From contig NZ_JAVHLD010000002.1 of assembly GCF_031082295.1 (NCBI RefSeq), forward strand, positions 1-40,975: a DNA stretch of 40,975 nt, written 5' to 3'. The translations under genes and the position numbers were made by a program. The DNA is from Humidesulfovibrio sp. GTDB lineage: Bacteria; Desulfobacterota; Desulfovibrionia; Desulfovibrionales; Desulfovibrionaceae. The notes beneath the pieces are model-generated. The model saw nothing but the letters and a program-made list of their open reading frames with translations. It was not told where the DNA came from and searched no databases. Positions 10,996-19,607 of the stretch are shown here, in pieces (positions within the stretch are counted from its first letter, which is position 1; each line of letters starts with the position of its first letter).

Positions 10996-13900
10996 CTACC
11001 ACTGCATAGACCGCTTCACGGCCATGGCCTTGGCCTGCTCGTCGTAGGTGGCGAAGCCGGCGTGGTGCATGGCGTCTTCTACAGTGTATGTCCAGTTCCA
11101 GCTGGAATAGATCACGGGCTTGTGGAAGGTGGAACGGAAGTGCTCCATCTCCTGGCGGTAGAAGGCTTCCTTGGGGCTCTCGATATTGTCGCGCAGCTGC
11201 TCGCTGAAACGGTCAAGCTCGCCCTCGTACCATTCCATGATGTCCTCGGCGGTGTTGTAGCGCTTGAGGATGTGGCCGTAGCCGTGCTCGTCGAGTAGCA
11301 TGCGAAGGCGGGCGAAGTGCTGCTCCTTCAGCCATGCGCCGAGTTCGGACACAGGGATGTTCAGGGCTTCGACCTCGGCCATCTGGACCTTGGTCTTACG
11401 GTAGGTGTCGGGCACGACCGATGCGGAGTCGATGCCGGCGATGGCCACCAGGCCGCGCAGGATCTCGCTGTTGGACACGCCCTGGCCGCAGAAGCCGACC
11501 TTCTTCACGTACTTCTGACCCGCGAAGATGGTCACCAGGATGGCCCAAACGACAGCGGGATCTTCCTCGTCGTAGATGTGCTGCAGGCGGGGATTGTCGC
11601 GGTCGGTGGCCAGCACCATCTGGGTCATGTCGTTGGAGCCGATGGAGAAGCCGTCGACCTCCTGCAGGAACTCCTTGCAAAGAATGGCGTTGCTGGGAAT
11701 TTCCGCCATAAGGATGAGCTTGACCCCGTCCTTGCCGGACTCGATGTTGTGCACCTGCTTCAGGTAGCGCTTCATGCTGCGCGCCTCTTCAAGGGTGCGC
11801 ACGAAGGGCAGCATGATCTGCAGGTTCTTGCCGCCGAAGATGCCGCGCGCCAGCTTGAAGGCCTCAAGCTCCCAGTCGTGGATGTTGCGCGACACGCCGC
11901 GGAAGCCCAGCATGGGGTTGTCTTCGTCGTGCTCGAACAGCAGCCCGCCCAGGAGGTTGCGGTACTCATTGGTCTTGAAGTCCGTGGTGCGGTAGACGAT
12001 GTTCTTGCCGTAGAAGGCCATGGCGAACAGGGCCAGGCCCTGGGCCAGAGTCTGGATGTAGTGCTCCTTGCCGGTGCGGAACCCGCGCGATTCAAGCAGC
12101 TTGCGGATGCGCTCCGGCAGGGTGCGCACCTCGTCCATTTCGGTCTTGAGGCCCATCTTGAGGGCCACTTCCTCGCGCAGGGCGGCGATGCGATCCAGCA
12201 CCTCGACCACGCCCGGCTCGTCCTTGATGCGCGCGGCGATCTTCTCGATCTCGCGCTCGTGGTCCTGCTTGGTCTTCTGGGCGTCGGCGTAGTTCTCGTT
12301 GATGTTGTCGACGACATCGGTGTAGCCCATGATGACGGCGATATGCTTCTTCAGGGAAACCGAGGTCTTGAGGGTCTCCAGGCGCTCGGTGGCGAAGCCG
12401 ATGTGCTCGTCGAGCTTCTTGTCCAGCTCGCGCAGGCGGCGGTGCAAGGCAAGCACCTCGTCGGTACCCTTTGTGTTTTCGCGCTCGGAGAGGGCAGCGA
12501 GCTCCTTGCCCAGACCGGTGACGAGGCCGACGTAGTCGCGCAGCTTGATGCGCATGTTGATGAGGCCGGAAGACAACTGCTCCTTCATGACCTTGGACAG
12601 GATGCCGTCCAGTTCACGCAGCTTGGCATCAACCAGGGAGTTCAGCACGCCCCGGTCATAGGCCTCAAGGGCCAGCGGATGTACGCTGATGTTGCCGAGC
12701 ATGAACTCGGCGCGCAGGAGGCCGACCTCAAAGTCGGGCACATGGCGCAGGCGCGACAGGAACAGCGACTGGCCGATGTCCGCCAGGATCAGGCCGACTT
12801 TGGTCTTGGTGGCCGGAAGCTTGCTCACGTCGATTTCGCCGCCAACGTCCACCAGGGGCAACAGGCCCCGGTACACGCGACCGCGCGAGCCGTCTACCGT
12901 GATCTCCTGCCCGTCGAGAGAGCGGATGACCTCCAGGCGCTGCAGGCCGATGACGGCCGGAATGCCCAGTTCGCGCGAGGTGATGGCGGCGTGGCTGGTG
13001 TCGCCGCCAACATCGGCCAGAATGGCGCTGGCGATGCGCATTCCCGGCACCATGTCCGGGTCGGTGCGCTCTGCGGCCAGGATGTCACCCTTGTTGACCT
13101 TGTTGAGTTCAAGGGCGGAACGCAGGAACTTCACGGTGCCCTGCCCGGCCCCGCGCGAGGCGCCGTTGCCTTCAAGGATCAACTCGGCGTCGTTCAGGGC
13201 CTTGGGGTCCACTTCCTTGCGCCGCATGAAAATGGTGTGCGGGTGCTGGTCGAAGTCGTCGTTCCAGCGGGTCTCGGGCCGGGCCTGAACGAACCACAGA
13301 CGGTCGGCGGAGTCGATGCAGAACTCGGTATCCATGATCATGCCGCCATAAGCCTTGGAGATGCCGCGAACGCCGCGGGCGACCTCCTCTGCCTGGGCAA
13401 GCGAGAGAGCCCAGCGAAACACCTCGTTCTCGTCAACATGCACGTCTTTGGTGCCGCCAAGATCCTCGTCGTAGACGATCTTCTTGTCCTTGCAGCCCAT
13501 GTAGCGGACCACGACCTCGCTGCCGTCGTCACGCTGGAAGACGTAGAACTTGTCGGGGGTGACCATGCCGCCCACAACTGCCTCGCCGAGGCCGTAGCTG
13601 GCGTCGATGGAAACAAGATCGTTGCGGTCGGTGCCACGGCAGCCGGTGGCCGTGTCTGCGCTGAAGGCCGTGCCGGAAATGAGCGGGTTGATCATGCGCA
13701 TGATGCACACCGAGAGGGAGGTGTTCTCGATGGCCCATTCCTTCTTGGCCGTTTCGGCGATGGTGTCGTCGCCGGTCTGCTCGGCCTTGTGCACCGCGTC
13801 GAGGATGGCTTCGCGGCGGTAGGTCATGCTGCGCAGATTGTAGGCAGAGGCACAATCCCAGTGGTAGGCCTCGACGCAACGGTCTTCGCCCACGATGTTC

Positions 13901-14592
13901 AGGTAGGTGTCCTGCAGGCCGGCAAAGGCCTTCTTGCGGCTGTCCTCGCCCGCGGCTGAGGAGCGCACGGCCATGGGCTCGTTCTCCAGGCCGGCATCGG
14001 CGCAGATGTCGAGATAGGCGCGGCGGACGGAATCAACGACCTCCTGAGGGGGGTCGACCGAAAGAATGGCCGCCTGGACGAGGACAGAACGCTTGCGCAG
14101 CTGGTCGATGCCCTCCGGCGAGGTGGCGAAGCCCTCGACAACATTGTTCACGAAGGTACGCAGCTTGATGAGCGTGCCGGAATTGCGGACCAGCTCTTCC
14201 CTGATGCGCTTGGAGATGCGGCGGGTGAACTTGCGAAGGAATTCAACGTCGCGGTTGACCTCGTCGTCGTTCCAGTCTGTGGCGTTGTATTCCTTGTCCA
14301 CGATGGAGCGCACAAGAGCCGCGTTGACCTTGGTCTCATCAAGCAACATGTGGAAAGCGTTGGAGGAAATGGCTCTGAATTGCGGGGCGCGGATGCCGGG
14401 AACCTGGCTGATGATGGCGGTGTTGTAGTTCTTTCCGCCGACAATCAGCTCGGCGTCAGGTCCAATCTGGACGATGTCGGCGCCAGTGAGGACGATTTTC
14501 TTTGTGAGATCGGTCGCTGCGGCAGGCTTGGACTTGGACTCGGCTCCAGCGCCTTCGGGCTTTTCGCCCTGTTCCTTCTTGCTCTTGGCCAT
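10996..14592 (-). CDS. PEP synthase / pyruvate,phosphate dikinase-like enzyme with large helical insertion
   Basis: Predicted to phosphorylate pyruvate to PEP. The N-terminal ATP-binding domain has PMAVRSSAAGEDSRKKAFAG (about 207-226). The swivelling phosphohistidine domain has GGDTSHAAITSRELGIPAV with catalytic His534. The C-terminal barrel has EIPSNAI, GFSIGSNDMTQ and FCGQGVSN with Cys1035. E. coli PpsA is about 790 residues; this protein has 1198. The extra length is mainly a segment at about 650-835, rich in charged heptads and interrupting the barrel, and a C-terminal ~130 residues after the catalytic cysteine region. The first ~30 residues are Lys/Glu/Ala-rich. I start at 14592, where AAGGAGGAG immediately precedes the ATG; another ATG lies nine codons upstream. 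Regulatory candidates are in the 343-base gap after pyc. PEPS or PPDK chemistry is likely, but the direction and the phosphate donor are unproven. Confidence 0.85.
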   Translation of the reverse strand: MAKSKKEQGEKPEGAGAESKSKPAAATDLTKKIVLTGADIVQIGPDAELIVGGKNYNTAIISQVPGIRAPQFRAISSNAFHMLLDETKVNAALVRSIVDKEYNATDWNDDEVNRDVEFLRKFTRRISKRIREELVRNSGTLIKLRTFVNNVVEGFATSPEGIDQLRKRSVLVQAAILSVDPPQEVVDSVRRAYLDICADAGLENEPMAVRSSAAGEDSRKKAFAGLQDTYLNIVGEDRCVEAYHWDCASAYNLRSMTYRREAILDAVHKAEQTGDDTIAETAKKEWAIENTSLSVCIMRMINPLISGTAFSADTATGCRGTDRNDLVSIDASYGLGEAVVGGMVTPDKFYVFQRDDGSEVVVRYMGCKDKKIVYDEDLGGTKDVHVDENEVFRWALSLAQAEEVARGVRGISKAYGGMIMDTEFCIDSADRLWFVQARPETRWNDDFDQHPHTIFMRRKEVDPKALNDAELILEGNGASRGAGQGTVKFLRSALELNKVNKGDILAAERTDPDMVPGMRIASAILADVGGDTSHAAITSRELGIPAVIGLQRLEVIRSLDGQEITVDGSRGRVYRGLLPLVDVGGEIDVSKLPATKTKVGLILADIGQSLFLSRLRHVPDFEVGLLRAEFMLGNISVHPLALEAYDRGVLNSLVDAKLRELDGILSKVMKEQLSSGLINMRIKLRDYVGLVTGLGKELAALSERENTKGTDEVLALHRRLRELDKKLDEHIGFATERLETLKTSVSLKKHIAVIMGYTDVVDNINENYADAQKTKQDHEREIEKIAARIKDEPGVVEVLDRIAALREEVALKMGLKTEMDEVRTLPERIRKLLESRGFRTGKEHYIQTLAQGLALFAMAFYGKNIVYRTTDFKTNEYRNLLGGLLFEHDEDNPMLGFRGVSRNIHDWELEAFKLARGIFGGKNLQIMLPFVRTLEEARSMKRYLKQVHNIESGKDGVKLILMAEIPSNAILCKEFLQEVDGFSIGSNDMTQMVLATDRDNPRLQHIYDEEDPAVVWAILVTIFAGQKYVKKVGFCGQGVSNSEILRGLVAIAGIDSASVVPDTYRKTKVQMAEVEALNIPVSELGAWLKEQHFARLRMLLDEHGYGHILKRYNTAEDIMEWYEGELDRFSEQLRDNIESPKEAFYRQEMEHFRSTFHKPVIYSSWNWTYTVEDAMHHAGFATYDEQAKAMAVKRSMQW

Positions 14593-14722
14593 GCTCTCCT
14601 CCTTGGCATCTTGGGGCATCGGGGCCGTATGGCCGCATCAGAGGACACAAATGCGTCCATCCCTGTGCACGAGCCTCTCGTGGAAGTGGGATGAGGACGC
14701 GGTTCGTCTTCTCGTTCGAACT

Positions 14723-14752
14723 GCGATACACCGTTTGCCGACTCTACGTCAA
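14723..14752 (-). promoter_or_regulatory. candidate promoter of the PEP-synthase-like gene
   Basis: On the minus strand TTGACG (14747-14752) is followed after 18 bases by TATCGC (14723-14728). The -35 is good (five of six) and the -10 weak (three of six). The palindrome TTGTATGTACAA directly abuts the -35, so its centre falls near -42, a position typical of activators contacting the polymerase. Confidence 0.35.
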
Positions 14753-14764
14753 TTGTACATACAA
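14747..14764. repeat. 18-base element, copy A
   Basis: CGTCAATTGTACATACAA; differs from copy B at 14889-14906 by one base. Read on the minus strand it contains the near-palindrome TTGTA-TG-TACAA followed by TTGACG. Likely a transcription factor site; the factor is unknown. Confidence 0.6.
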
Positions 14765-14876
14765 CAACAGTCGCAGATAATCGAGAAGGCCTTGATGCGT
14801 GGGGTTTTTGGCAGGAATGAGAGGGTCAAAGAAACGCAGCAGAAAGGGACAGACTCAAGAAAAGAGTCGCGGACAA

Positions 14877-14929
14877 CCTCCGGCTGCGCGTCAATTGCAC
14901 ATACAAGCAACTAGACGCGCAGCCGGAGG
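14877..14929 (-). terminator. 16-bp perfect hairpin downstream of pyruvate carboxylase
   Basis: CCTCCGGCTGCGCGTC (14877-14892) pairs with GACGCGCAGCCGGAGG (14914-14929) without mismatch around a 21-base loop. It begins seven bases after the pyc stop codon. No T-run follows on the minus strand, so it may act as a 3'-end stabiliser, a Rho-assisted terminator or a control element rather than a classical terminator. Its loop carries copy B of the 18-base element. Confidence 0.6.
14889..14906. repeat. 18-base element, copy B, in the hairpin loop
   Basis: CGTCAATTGCACATACAA; 17 of 18 bases match copy A at 14747-14764. The first four bases belong to the hairpin stem and the rest to the loop. Unlike copy A it is not followed by a plausible -10 hexamer. 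Confidence 0.6.
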
Positions 14930-14935
14930 AGCGAC

Positions 14936-17900
14936 CTAGATCTTTTGGCCGCAGCCGGGGCAGAACTTGAAGTCCGCGCTACCGACAGGAGCTTTGCAGG
15001 TGGGGCAGCAGCTCTCAACCGGGCCAAGCTCCACAAGAAGCTCGCCTTCCTTAACAGGTACCATGATCTTGTCTTCCTGGTAGTTGGCGTTCTTGAGCAC
15101 GCGCTTGACCATGCCGGCCGTGGCCGCGTAGACGCTCTTCTCCTGCTTCATGATGGAGATGTTGCAGATCTCCTCGCCAAGCTTGACGTGATCGCCCACG
15201 CGAACATGCATGACCCAGAGGTCACCGTTCGAAGGCGAGGCGATGTGGTACTCGTTCTTCAGGTCGGCCATCTCCACGGCATCGCGCTCGGAGGCGGCTC
15301 CTTCACGCACCTTCACCTGATAGCTCACGCTCTCGTTGTCCACCGTGTAGCGCACCGTGCAGATGCCCTGCTCGTCCGGCTCGGAGATGTCATGGATCTG
15401 CATGACGTGCGGCTTGCCGGAAGCGCTCTGGAAGAGCAGCTTCTCGTTCTTCTCAAGCCCCTCGAACCAGACATCGACGGGCAGGTTGTTGGCATCGCCG
15501 AAGTTCTCGCAGAACTCGATGGTCTTGAGCGCATCGCCAGGGTGGTTCAGGTAGAGCACGAACTCTTCGGGCGTCGGCTTGCGGCCAAGGCGCACTGCCA
15601 AGGCCTGCTCCTCGGCGGCGAGGTCCATGTCGGCCAGGGTCTCGAGCGGGGAGGCCTCGGTGCGGCAGGCGACGGCGTCCTGCCAGTCGTTGCCGAAGGC
15701 GCTCTGGTAGACCCAGTCGGCAGGGAAGCCCAGAGGCAACTTGCCGTACTTGCCGAGCAGCAGATTGCGGAAGGCGTCGTTGCTGTCGCGATAGAGGTCG
15801 AGGCGCGCCTCGCACTCATGAGCGGTGAGGTCGGCCTCGGGCGCCAGGTTCACGATATCCAGAATGTTCAGCAGACGACGCACCTCGCGCTCGCCGCCGC
15901 GCTTGTACGCGCCGGTGACAGCCAGAAACGCCGTGTTCCAGGTGATCTGGGAACCGGGGGTGACGTCGTGGTAGCGCACGATCTTGCGCGTTCCGGCCAG
16001 GAACTTCAGCATGTAGGGCAGGAGGTGGATGTAGCCCTGCTTCATGGCCCCTTCCTGCGAAGAGGAGGTGGCCCCGCCGGGCATGCCGTGCATGACAACG
16101 TCGTGGTCGATGCCCTGGAAGTACGGCGCGCAGTAGCGGTCATAGTACGGCATGATCTGCTTGAGGGTGAAGTTGGTGGAGCGGATCATCTCCTTGTCGA
16201 TCACGGTCGACAGCCCCATCTCCTCCTCAATGTACGCGCAGGTGGAGAGCACGTCGCCCTGTCCGTACCAGCGCACGGAGGAGCCGATGGCTGTATCGAC
16301 GATGTGCGCGCCAGCGCTCGCGGCAGCGCCCATGGTGGGCACGAAAAGGCCGTCCGTGTAGTGGCGGTGGCTGTGGATGACCAGATCCGGGTACTTCTTG
16401 ACCAGCGCCTGGATGAGCTCGCGCATGAAACGCGGCGGGCAAACCCCTGCCATGTCCTTGAGCCCCAAGGTGATGGACTGGCTGGCCATTTTCTTGGAGA
16501 CGCCCAGCACGTCCGCGCACATGGCAAGGATGTTCTCAGTGACGCCCAGGTAGTGATCCACGTCAAAGCCCTTGGCCCAGGACAGGGACAAGGCGGGCTC
16601 GAAGATGTGCTTCTTGGATTCGAGGACCACTTCCGCGAACGGACGCATGTTTTCAACATGATTCAGGAAGTCAAAGCAGCGGATGACGTCGTAGTGCTCG
16701 CAGATCATCTCGCCGGTGAGGCGCATCAGGTTCTTTGGTTGCGGCTTGTAGCCCAGAACGTTGGTGGAGCGGATGAGGATCTGCTTCAGCGTCGTGGGCG
16801 CGAACTGGTTCCACTCCTTGGCCTCGGTGAAGGGGTAGGTCATGTTGGCCAGCATGGCCACGTGGAAGTGCGCGCCTCCGCCATTCTCCAGGGAGAAGAA
16901 TCCGCAGCGGTCCAGGTAGGGGCCGATGATGCGGTCTTCGGCCAGGCGGAAACGGTTTCCGGAATTGCTCTGTGTGATGTCGCGTGTGGTGGTGTCGCTG
17001 AAATGGACGATGCCCTTGGAGCGGTCCTCGCGCAGCGCATCCAGAATGGAATCACGGCTCATGCTGCGGGTGATGCGCGGCTCAAAGGCGGCGTCAGAGG
17101 TCTCCGGCGCCTTGACCAGCTGGAAGCGGCCCACACGCTTGTCGGCGCGGCCACGGTACTCTCCCAGGGACACATACGGGTTGTAGCCCTTTGCCGAAAT
17201 CTCGGCCACCAGGCGCGTCAGGCGCACGCGCTCCGGCTCCTGGTCCGAGTAGGACATGAGCTCGGCCTTTTTCAGGCGAACGAAGTTGGTGTCGTAGTAG
17301 CCGGAAACGAAGTCCGGGTGCTTGATGACCTGGCGGTGGAAGTTGATGGTGGTTTTGACACCGCTAATCATGTACTCGCGCAGGGCGCGGCGCATGAGCA
17401 TGACGGTCTTGTCCCAGCTGCTGCCGTACGTGATGAGGAGCGCGGCGGCGGAGTCGTAGCGAGAGGGGAAGCGGTAGCCCGCGCAAATGCAGGAGTCGAT
17501 GCGCACGCCCTGGCCGCCGGGAGAAACGTAGCGGGTGATGGTGCCTGCGTTGGGCGAGAAATTGTCCTGCGGGTCCTCGCAATTCACGCGCACCTGCATG
17601 GCGTGCAGGTAGGGCTTGGTGTTCTTCTCGTTGAAGCGCAACTTGGAGCCGAAGGCGATGGCGATCTGCTCCTCAACCAGGTCAATGCCGTAGCGGCATT
17701 CGGTGATGCCGTGCTCCACCTGGAGGCGCGTGTTGACCTCGATGAGGTAGGGGCGTCCGTCCTTGTCGACGAGGAACTCCACCGTGGCCAGGGAATGGTA
17801 GCCGCACGCCTTGATGAGCTTCTCAGAGTAGCCCTTGAGCTCCTTGCGCAGCTCCGGCGTGAAGACCGGCCAGGGCGAAGGGGTGATCTCAATGAGCTTC

Positions 17901-18640
17901 TGGTGGTTGCGCTGCACGGAGCAGTCGCGCTCGTCGAAGACGAAGACGTTGCCGTACATGTCGGCCACGGTCTGAAATTCAATGTGGCGCACCGAGGTGA
18001 GCAGCTTTTCCACGTAGAGGCGCGGATTGCCGAAGCTTGCCTTGGCCAGGGCCGAAGCCTTGGTGAAGGCGCTCTCAAGCTGGGATTCCTCGTAGACCTC
18101 GTAGATGCCGCGACCGCCGCCGCCGCCCTCGGCCTTGAGCATGATCGGGAAGCCGATCTCCTTGGCGATGCGGCGTGCCTCGGGGATGCTGACGGCCTCG
18201 GGGGAGCCGGGCACCACGGGTACGCCAATCTCCTCGGCCAGTTTGCGCACGGCCACCTTGTTGCCAAGAAGACGCATCGGCCCCTGGTTCGGCCCGATGA
18301 AGATGATGCCCGCTTCCTCGCATTTCTTGGGGAAGGAGTCGTCCTCGCTGCCGAAGCCCCAGCCGGGGTGGATGGCGACAATGCCGCGATCCTTGGCCAT
18401 TTTGATGACGCGGTCCAGATCGAGATAGGCGCGGGGGTCCTCGCCAAGCAGGAGCAGCTCGTGGGCGCCGGTAGTGGCCGGGGAAGTCTTGTCGACATCG
18501 GTCGCGGTCATGACGGCCACGGCCTCAAACATTTCGGTAATGGAGCGGCAGATGCGACGTGCCGGGATGCCCCGATTGGCCACCAGGATTGGCTTGCCCT
18601 TGACGATTTCCAGAACCTGCTCAAATGACTTCGGCTTCAT
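14936..18640 (-). CDS. pyc: pyruvate carboxylase with C-terminal zinc ribbon
   Basis: Biotin-dependent carboxylation of pyruvate to oxaloacetate. Biotin carboxylase domain (about 15-465): glycine loop at 172-178, KLIEITPSP, and NTRLQVEH with the catalytic region near 303-310. Carboxyltransferase (about 545-840): DTTTRDITQS from 549, carbamylated-lysine motif GLKDMAG with Lys728, and metal histidines HSH at 756-758. The tether is followed by a biotinyl domain (about 1130-1205) with ISIMKQEKS, biotin on Lys1165; the usual sequence is AMKM. The end (1212-1230) is a CPTC...CPGC zinc ribbon, absent from typical pyruvate carboxylases of about 1150 residues. The ATG at 18640 has AGGGGGA about twelve bases upstream. 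It lies 58 bases after birA on the same strand and is probably cotranscribed. The divergent carboxyltransferase motifs leave some doubt about substrate. Confidence 0.9.
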   Translation of the reverse strand: MKPKSFEQVLEIVKGKPILVANRGIPARRICRSITEMFEAVAVMTATDVDKTSPATTGAHELLLLGEDPRAYLDLDRVIKMAKDRGIVAIHPGWGFGSEDDSFPKKCEEAGIIFIGPNQGPMRLLGNKVAVRKLAEEIGVPVVPGSPEAVSIPEARRIAKEIGFPIMLKAEGGGGGRGIYEVYEESQLESAFTKASALAKASFGNPRLYVEKLLTSVRHIEFQTVADMYGNVFVFDERDCSVQRNHQKLIEITPSPWPVFTPELRKELKGYSEKLIKACGYHSLATVEFLVDKDGRPYLIEVNTRLQVEHGITECRYGIDLVEEQIAIAFGSKLRFNEKNTKPYLHAMQVRVNCEDPQDNFSPNAGTITRYVSPGGQGVRIDSCICAGYRFPSRYDSAAALLITYGSSWDKTVMLMRRALREYMISGVKTTINFHRQVIKHPDFVSGYYDTNFVRLKKAELMSYSDQEPERVRLTRLVAEISAKGYNPYVSLGEYRGRADKRVGRFQLVKAPETSDAAFEPRITRSMSRDSILDALREDRSKGIVHFSDTTTRDITQSNSGNRFRLAEDRIIGPYLDRCGFFSLENGGGAHFHVAMLANMTYPFTEAKEWNQFAPTTLKQILIRSTNVLGYKPQPKNLMRLTGEMICEHYDVIRCFDFLNHVENMRPFAEVVLESKKHIFEPALSLSWAKGFDVDHYLGVTENILAMCADVLGVSKKMASQSITLGLKDMAGVCPPRFMRELIQALVKKYPDLVIHSHRHYTDGLFVPTMGAAASAGAHIVDTAIGSSVRWYGQGDVLSTCAYIEEEMGLSTVIDKEMIRSTNFTLKQIMPYYDRYCAPYFQGIDHDVVMHGMPGGATSSSQEGAMKQGYIHLLPYMLKFLAGTRKIVRYHDVTPGSQITWNTAFLAVTGAYKRGGEREVRRLLNILDIVNLAPEADLTAHECEARLDLYRDSNDAFRNLLLGKYGKLPLGFPADWVYQSAFGNDWQDAVACRTEASPLETLADMDLAAEEQALAVRLGRKPTPEEFVLYLNHPGDALKTIEFCENFGDANNLPVDVWFEGLEKNEKLLFQSASGKPHVMQIHDISEPDEQGICTVRYTVDNESVSYQVKVREGAASERDAVEMADLKNEYHIASPSNGDLWVMHVRVGDHVKLGEEICNISIMKQEKSVYAATAGMVKRVLKNANYQEDKIMVPVKEGELLVELGPVESCCPTCKAPVGSADFKFCPGCGQKI

Positions 18641-18698: not shown

Positions 18699-19607
18699 TC
18701 AGAGAGGCGTCACATCGCCGGCAAGGAGACGTATTTCCCTGCCCTCACTATCGAGAACCAGTTCACCAATTCCGGAGACACCCATCACCCTCGCCTCGTA
18801 CCGAACGCCTGCGCCTTCGGTCACAAGGACACGACGACCGACCCAGGCAAGCCTGGACCGGAAGATCGTCAGAAAATCACTGGGAGTGAATGTCTCAAGT
18901 AGAGTTGTGTAACCCGTTTCCATCCGATTTACAAGCATCCGCCACAGCCCGAGGACGCCAGGAATGTGCTGGAGGCCCGGAAACTGCGCTGCCGCAACGC
19001 AATGCCCGTCACGCAGGTCCGACTCGCCAGGAGCCCATGCCACGTTCAGTCCAAGCCCAGCGAGAATGCAGCCAGGCCGCTCCTCGACGAGGATTCCACC
19101 TATCTTCTTGTCATCCAACAGAAGATCATTCGGCCATTTCACGCGGACAGGCCCGCAAACGTCCTCCAAAGCCTCCGCAAGCAGATGGCCGAGCACGAGA
19201 GGGCGTAGGTCGTTCCAAAGCCCCTGCGCAGGCGGGCAGACTAGTGTCGCCAGCACGTTGCCAGGCGCCGAGAGCCAGTTCCGGCGGAGCTGCCCGCGCC
19301 CAAGCGTCTGCACCGGCGCGATGACGCTGCCGAAAACGCCCAGGCAGCCGCGCGACACCAGTTCACGGGCCACGTCCATGGTCGACGAGCAGGGGCCGCA
19401 CACGACCACCGCAGAGCCCGGCGGCGCATCTGCGCGCAACGTCCTGTCATCGCAATGGTTCCAGGGGGCAAAAGTCTGCATATCCGACGCCCAAAGCGGA
19501 TGAAACGACGCCAGCGAGTCCGGCGATATGGGGTCAGCCAGACCGGGTAGGCCTTCGGCTAGCAGGCGCACGCCGGAAGCGTCTGACTCAGGCACTGGAT
19601 GCTCCAC
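18699..19607 (-). CDS. birA: biotin--[carboxylase] ligase
   Basis: Makes biotinyl-AMP and transfers biotin to a carrier lysine, here presumably Lys1165 of the adjacent pyruvate carboxylase. Of the 302 residues, about 65-300 form the ligase: CSSTMDVA, the adenylate loop GRGQLRRNW (canonical GRGRxGRxW), VKWPNDLLLDDKKIGGILVE, and GLGLNV. The C-terminal cap domain is present (VGRRVLVTEGAGVRYEARVMGV). The first ~60 residues are not a winged helix, so this is a ligase without the repressor domain. The start is GTG at 19607 with AAGGAAAGAAGG upstream. An ATG at codon 43 is an alternative start but lacks a good ribosome binding site. It lies upstream of pyc and is divergent from cca, 47 bases away. 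Confidence 0.9.
   Translation of the reverse strand: MEHPVPESDASGVRLLAEGLPGLADPISPDSLASFHPLWASDMQTFAPWNHCDDRTLRADAPPGSAVVVCGPCSSTMDVARELVSRGCLGVFGSVIAPVQTLGRGQLRRNWLSAPGNVLATLVCPPAQGLWNDLRPLVLGHLLAEALEDVCGPVRVKWPNDLLLDDKKIGGILVEERPGCILAGLGLNVAWAPGESDLRDGHCVAAAQFPGLQHIPGVLGLWRMLVNRMETGYTTLLETFTPSDFLTIFRSRLAWVGRRVLVTEGAGVRYEARVMGVSGIGELVLDSEGREIRLLAGDVTPL

Follow-up and report, generated by a model that had tools for sequence, protein, structure and literature searches.

We analysed a stretch of 40,975 nucleotides from Humidesulfovibrio sp. (the window), whose minus strand carries, in this order, a birA-like gene (18699-19607), the pyruvate carboxylase gene pyc, a 316-bp spacer and a gene for a phosphoenolpyruvate (PEP)-synthase-like protein, referred to here as the pps-like gene. 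The pyc product scored 1246 bits against NF009554 (PRK12999.1; cut-off 965). The pps-like protein contains PPDK_N, PEP-utilizers and PEP-utilizers_C domains and scored 580.8 with the best NCBIfam PEP synthase model, just below the cut-off of 598. The features of this region, from upstream to downstream on the transcribed strand, are as follows.

14936..18640, minus strand: pyc, an open reading frame for pyruvate carboxylase (1234 aa), the upstream gene
14877..14929, minus strand: 16-bp perfect hairpin enclosing O1, found in the window species and not general in the genus
14895..14906, minus strand: O1, palindrome TTGTATGTGCAA followed by TTGA, inside copy B, 29 nt from the pyc stop
14765..14894, minus strand: stretch between the two palindromes, 130 nt (128-131 nt in 12 genomes)
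14753..14764, minus strand: O2, palindrome TTGTATGTACAA inside copy A, abutting the -35 box
14747..14752, minus strand: probable -35 box TTGACG of the pps-like gene, from the genus alignment and direct reading
14723..14728, minus strand: probable -10 box TATCGC, 18 nt past the -35 box, from the genus alignment
14643..14708 (approximate limits), minus strand: structured 5' leader of the pps-like gene, with a stem-loop kept in the genus
10996..14619, minus strand: pps-like gene (1207 aa), thought to be the controlled gene

The first-pass annotation had reported a duplicated 18-base element in the spacer, and this was borne out. CGTCAATTGTACATACAA lies at 14747-14764 (copy A) and CGTCAATTGCACATACAA at 14889-14906 (copy B), giving two matches with at most three mismatches in the window, where shuffles predict 0.02, and these two are the sole matches at that threshold in the whole genome (3,451,090 bases; reversed control, 0). 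The direct repeat could be extended to 27 nt at 81% identity. The unit within both 18-mers is a 12-bp palindrome, TTGTATGTRCAA; on the pyc strand, the genus spacer alignment reads approximately ATTGTTGTATGTGCAATTGA for the whole of the kept motif. On the minus strand, copy A reads as the palindrome with TTGACG directly after it, then 18 nt and TATCGC; the position proposed for the palindrome centre, near -42, agrees with the usual promoter numbering. A promoter scan of the window left the pps-like promoter unlisted, because the scan demands the final T that is missing from the -10 box, and listed a promoter on the opposite strand.

The pyc C-terminus was recovered in 14 of 15 genomes of the genus (G010, 81% complete, lacked it), and the 14 spacers that were read each adjoin the best pyc match. 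Both palindromes were present in 12 of these 14 readable pyc-pps spacers. In all 12, O2 meets the -35 box with zero gap and the -10 box keeps TATC; the -35 box is TTGACG in 11 and TTGACT in L014. The spacers of G013 (L009) and G007 (L010) have neither palindrome, are shorter, retain TTGACG before the pps-like gene and also lack the stretch that carries the stem-loop in relatives. These two genomes were not sisters in a pyc tree in which only four of 15 inner branches were well supported. Absence of both copies from relatives that keep the gene order, the counter-evidence that had been envisaged for the element, was thus found in two of the 14 genus genomes and in other genera and not in the remaining 12, which makes the pair a genus-level feature that two genomes lack. 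Comparison within the family shows the arrangement, a pyc-pps spacer with two copies separated by about 142 bp, to be confined to this genus when searched as a strict pattern: 9 of 288 family genomes matched, all of this genus and all at the pyc-pps spacer (reversed control, 0); G005, G006 and G014 go undetected because their copies deviate from the letters of the pattern. No site accompanies a second pyc-like match in G006 (L033, contig C85), which encodes a 61%-identical pyc; that genome is 84% complete with 3% contamination, and the contig may be a contaminant.

Measured start to start, O1 and O2 are 142, 143, 142, 142, 141, 143, 143, 140, 142, 141, 142 and 143 bp apart in the 12 genomes (mean 142.0, sd 0.95, range 140-143 bp). 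Compared with eight orthologous gaps from the same neighbourhoods, this constancy is suggestive of constraint and not proof of it, since the birA-pyc gap (58.2, sd 1.7, n=12) is nearly as steady. The other gaps were a 127-bp gap with sd 14.7 (n=7), a 58-bp gap with sd 6.0 (n=7), convergent gaps of 73 bp (sd 5.9, n=9) and 23 bp (sd 15.7, n=4), and three further gaps with sd 288-460, due to outliers or changed gene content. The window's interior between O1 and O2 matched itself only when searched across its own genome, and had no clear homology with the other eleven interiors (z 0.1-2.9; most other pairs 3-19, some lower). Since it nevertheless has the same length, it appears that length, not sequence, is kept in the window species. 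One match to an IHF-like site, at up to one mismatch, was found over the 12 interiors.

A two-mismatch search of the window's own genome found the palindromes flanking a MarR-family gene on contig C11, with a flavin-reductase-like gene adjoining.

C11 60613-61041 (locus L042, genome G000), minus strand: MarR-family gene, beside the flavin-reductase-like gene

The protein matched PF01047 with 41.8 bits (cut-off 24.6) and PF12802 with 33.1 (cut-off 27), and a profile of 21 MarR orthologues matched YusO, SlyA (1lj9) and 5hlh/4hbl in the PDB. In a PF12802 search of the genome three MarR genes pass the cut-off, and of these the C11 gene alone has the sites. In many Desulfovibrionaceae the MarR gene has a flavin reductase gene as its neighbour. 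Within the genus it was present in 12 of 15 genomes, including all eight near-complete ones; it was not found in G008, G010 and G011 (86, 81 and 73% complete), of which G008 and G011 carry operators, and it is kept in G013 and G007, where both operators are absent. All 12 genus loci have an exact TTGYRYRYRCAA upstream of the gene, at a distance of 23-60 nt from the start as taken from the alignment. Past the MarR stop and before the flavin reductase gene, the palindrome was exact in nine of the 12 loci, carried one mismatch in two and was missing from one. At an E value of 1e-15, a MarR orthologue was detected in 34 of 247 family genomes, 22 of them outside the genus; the loci of 18 of these 22 were read, and the upstream palindrome was present in all 18 (15 exact, three with one mismatch) and a downstream one, within 200 nt and with at most one mismatch, in 16. 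The sites at L158, L160 and L162 are exactly TTGTATGTACAA and that at L161 is exactly TTGTATGTGCAA, the two versions found in the window, and the MarR operator of G001, TTGTACATGCAACTGATG, is identical to 18 bases at O1 of L005. Comparison thus shows the palindrome to be the kept class of putative site at the genes of this MarR clade themselves. By reading, the MarR gene's site in the window genome lies over the -10/start region of a TTGACA promoter, which would be the geometry of self-repression.

Cys11 of the MarR protein is invariant in 30 of 30 orthologues and lies two residues off the 5hlh cysteine in the profile alignment, so that a sensor of the OhrR/MgrA type, with its sensing cysteine at the known position in helix 1, is a tentative assignment. 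In an excerpt of a review, MarR-family cysteines are reported to sense oxidants and sulfane sulfur (PMC11211675). As a lead only, Cys11 may point to a thiol-based signal, with the regulator acting as a redox or sulfur sensor.

A matrix built solely from the 18 non-genus MarR upstream sites ranked O2 first (22.0) and O1 second (20.5) in the window, followed by a match of 17.0 and then by scores below 10; in 50 shuffled windows the mean of the maxima was 12.9 and the highest 21.1, above the score of O1. The match of 17.0, at window position 2580, lies inside the 5' end of an open reading frame and was judged a chance match. Over 196,687 bases from 12 genus loci, the top 20 matches were both copies of the ten loci that possess them. 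Among 36 other pyc loci without operators, some perhaps from the same organisms, none reached 15, the best being 14.6 (L017) and 13.3 (L031). Five genus genomes gave 7, 12, 6, 4 and 5 matches to TTGYRYRYRCAA, seven of them in the window genome; of these 34 matches the MarR locus and the pyc-pps spacer account for 19, and the other 15 are about as many as in the reversed control (13). A site in G002 (C11:188293) follows an open reading frame taken by reading as phage-like or mobile and was set aside.

Because the same palindrome stands at the MarR gene in 30 of 30 loci and the matrix ranks O2 and O1 top, O1 and O2 are very probably twin operators of the C11 MarR-family regulator, controlling the pps-like gene, whatever the sign of that control. 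A MarR dimer at O2, abutting the -35 box, would control access of RNA polymerase, and a dimer at O1 would strengthen the effect of O2 from a fixed distance, perhaps by short-range looping or a bridging complex formed around the 3' end of pyc. A ligand or redox change in the regulator would release the sites, and the pps-like gene would be switched together with the flavin reductase gene. The first-pass annotation had proposed a two-site regulator of the GntR type; the two-site part is supported by the pair at near-fixed spacing in 12 of 14 genus spacers, and the GntR identity is not supported, since the palindrome recurs at a MarR-family gene.

As to sign, the sequences slightly favour repression over activation. 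An operator that runs into the -35 box favours occlusion, and this is suggested by the gapless O2 in all 12 genomes together with an NTGA tail at O1 in 11 of 12, where most show no evident promoter, so that O2 itself may enter the -35 box. This argument is weakened by the MarR genes' own upstream sites, which carry the tail in only six of 12 genus and six of 18 other loci; the MarR-locus and pyc-pps sites have different flanking sequences. The same MarR protein could instead be a class II-type activator, with the O2 dimer contacting RNA polymerase and O1 auxiliary, a variant of the operator reading that is compatible with it. The centre near -42, the gapless -35 box in 12 of 12 genomes and a poor -10 box, TATCNN at 18-nt spacing, leave activation in play, but the MarR gene's own site overlaps the -10/start region, and by reading the pps-like spacers of several other genera have TTGAC-type boxes without operators; we regard activation as quite possible without expecting it. 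Genomes G013 and G007 do not settle the sign, because their spacers are shorter and the stem-loop stretch is also absent. Another alternative is a GntR (FadR-type) regulator. GT-N4-AC is the GntR/FadR-type operator motif, and the 8-bp core GTATGTAC formally fits it, but each of the 30 loci examined has the palindrome at its MarR gene, and in the window genome the motif shows no linkage to a GntR gene: a PF00392 search gives two such genes, at C11:131136 and C22:133694, and neither is within 30 kb of any TTGYRYRYRCAA site. We rejected GntR as the main explanation and consider it very unlikely.

Two further alternatives would deny the pair a joint function. O1 could have been left behind when an operator was duplicated with its promoter, as an alternative or decayed copy of that promoter, the pair being a matter of history. 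In L006 and L008 the 32 nt past O1 resemble those past O2 (z 4.4 and 5.0; 0 of 300 shuffles each), and the window repeat reaches 27 nt; no such likeness was seen in the other ten of 12 genomes, although O1 and its spacing are kept in all 12. O1 may have originated in this way, and its upkeep is not explained by origin alone; with the likeness in just two of 12 genomes, we rejected promoter duplication as the whole answer and hold it unlikely that the pair is only history. The other alternative is an RNA-level device, in which the copy-B hairpin and inner stem-loops serve as attenuators or as 3'-end structures of pyc, the repeat being there incidentally. The hairpin of the window has 16-nt arms (14877-14892 and 14914-14929) that are 100% complementary, with 21 nt between them. 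Copy B had been placed in its loop; the hairpin is there, but copy B is not wholly in the loop, as 14889-14892 belong to the stem and the palindrome, 14895-14906, to the loop. Another such hairpin occurs in L013, and a common inner stem in ten aligned relatives. Against this device, the flanks of copy B are conspicuously complementary in two of 12 genomes only (L003 and L013, 0 of 300 shuffles), marginally so in L004 (12 of 300) and L014 (31 of 300), and no more than is usual in the other eight (at least 58 of 300). The hairpin was accordingly dropped as a kept feature, and the coupling to pyc 3'-end formation that had been ascribed to it gains little from these genomes. Covariation in the inner stem is weak (three of 11 pairs changed on both sides, covariation term -0.02), and the inner stem was not seen in the window species, although both palindromes are present there. 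Overall, an RNA-level device is hardly credible.

Cooperation between the proposed MarR operators by DNA looping is plausible. LacI and GalR are two-operator looping repressors with operator spacings of 100-200 bp, and the present locus resembles theirs in having two like operators, one at the promoter and the other 100-200 bp away, with the spacing tightly kept; it differs in that O1 is located within the 3' region of the gene before it and that a bridging protein would be hypothetical here. A MarR protein is generally a dimer that binds a single DNA site and, to our knowledge, the class is not usually credited with looping. The distance of 142 bp amounts to 13.5 helical turns at 10.5 bp per turn and 13.0 at 10.9. 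In a more elaborate model, the 3' end of pyc would sit inside a short loop held by a MarR dimer, with its length kept at 142 bp (about 13 turns at 10.9-11.0 bp per turn). A single switch responsive to redox state or sulfur would then insulate pyc read-through, control the pps-like promoter and couple pyruvate carboxylation and PEP synthesis to the flavin-reductase circuit, in one genus; we regard this model as doubtful. With its near-constant length across dissimilar DNA, the spacer would be a natural setting in which to test for action of a MarR protein through two sites far apart.

MarR, MexR, OhrR, SlyA and AbfR have autoregulated operators of the MarR family. Like these, the C11 system has a short inverted repeat both at the promoter of the regulator itself and at a neighbouring enzyme gene; unlike them, it has a proposed third target, unlinked and belonging to central carbon metabolism, where two sites stand about 142 bp from each other and one abuts a -35 box. 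What emerges is a regulator of a known kind with a probable new target and an unusual arrangement of sites. For sulfate reducers, the comparison supplies a candidate regulator of a central-carbon gene that can be put to the test; it suggests that the PEP-synthase-like gene was put under a new controller in this genus, and it points to genus-level rewiring whereby two newly acquired operators brought a further target into an older MarR/flavin-reductase circuit. Among the literature matches, judged by title and the opening of the abstract, none describes this MarR regulator or the O1/O2 sites; the literal palindrome is absent from the matches to one of these searches, which a paper holding the palindrome alone would have escaped.

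Several minor features of the spacer were also observed. By reading, the minus-strand arm of the window hairpin is followed by TTGTCC, with no T-run of an intrinsic terminator directly after it; the terminator scan admits loops of 3-8 nt only, and the 21-nt loop is outside its range. Ten relatives (L004-L006, L008, L011-L016) have the common stem between the operators. In L011-L013, L015 and L016 it reads approximately GCGGYCAGGAG...CTCCTGGCCGC, with a few T after it in some, and it is perhaps the pyc terminator; L007 has a different hairpin between the operators. The distance from the pyc stop to O1 is 27-31 nt except in L005, where it is about 163 nt longer. The ends of this extra stretch are nearly complementary, and its end letters resemble letters found before the MarR gene in that genome (L122); the insert is perhaps a dispersed short repeat. 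At Rfam gathering thresholds the window gave one tRNA and nothing else. The stem-loop in the leader of the pps-like gene had a consensus fold of -28.0 kcal/mol over eight sequences, against -5.9 (sd 2.3) for column shuffles, and of -10.4 against -0.1 (sd 0.3) over all 14; regulation of the pps-like gene through its leader is possible.
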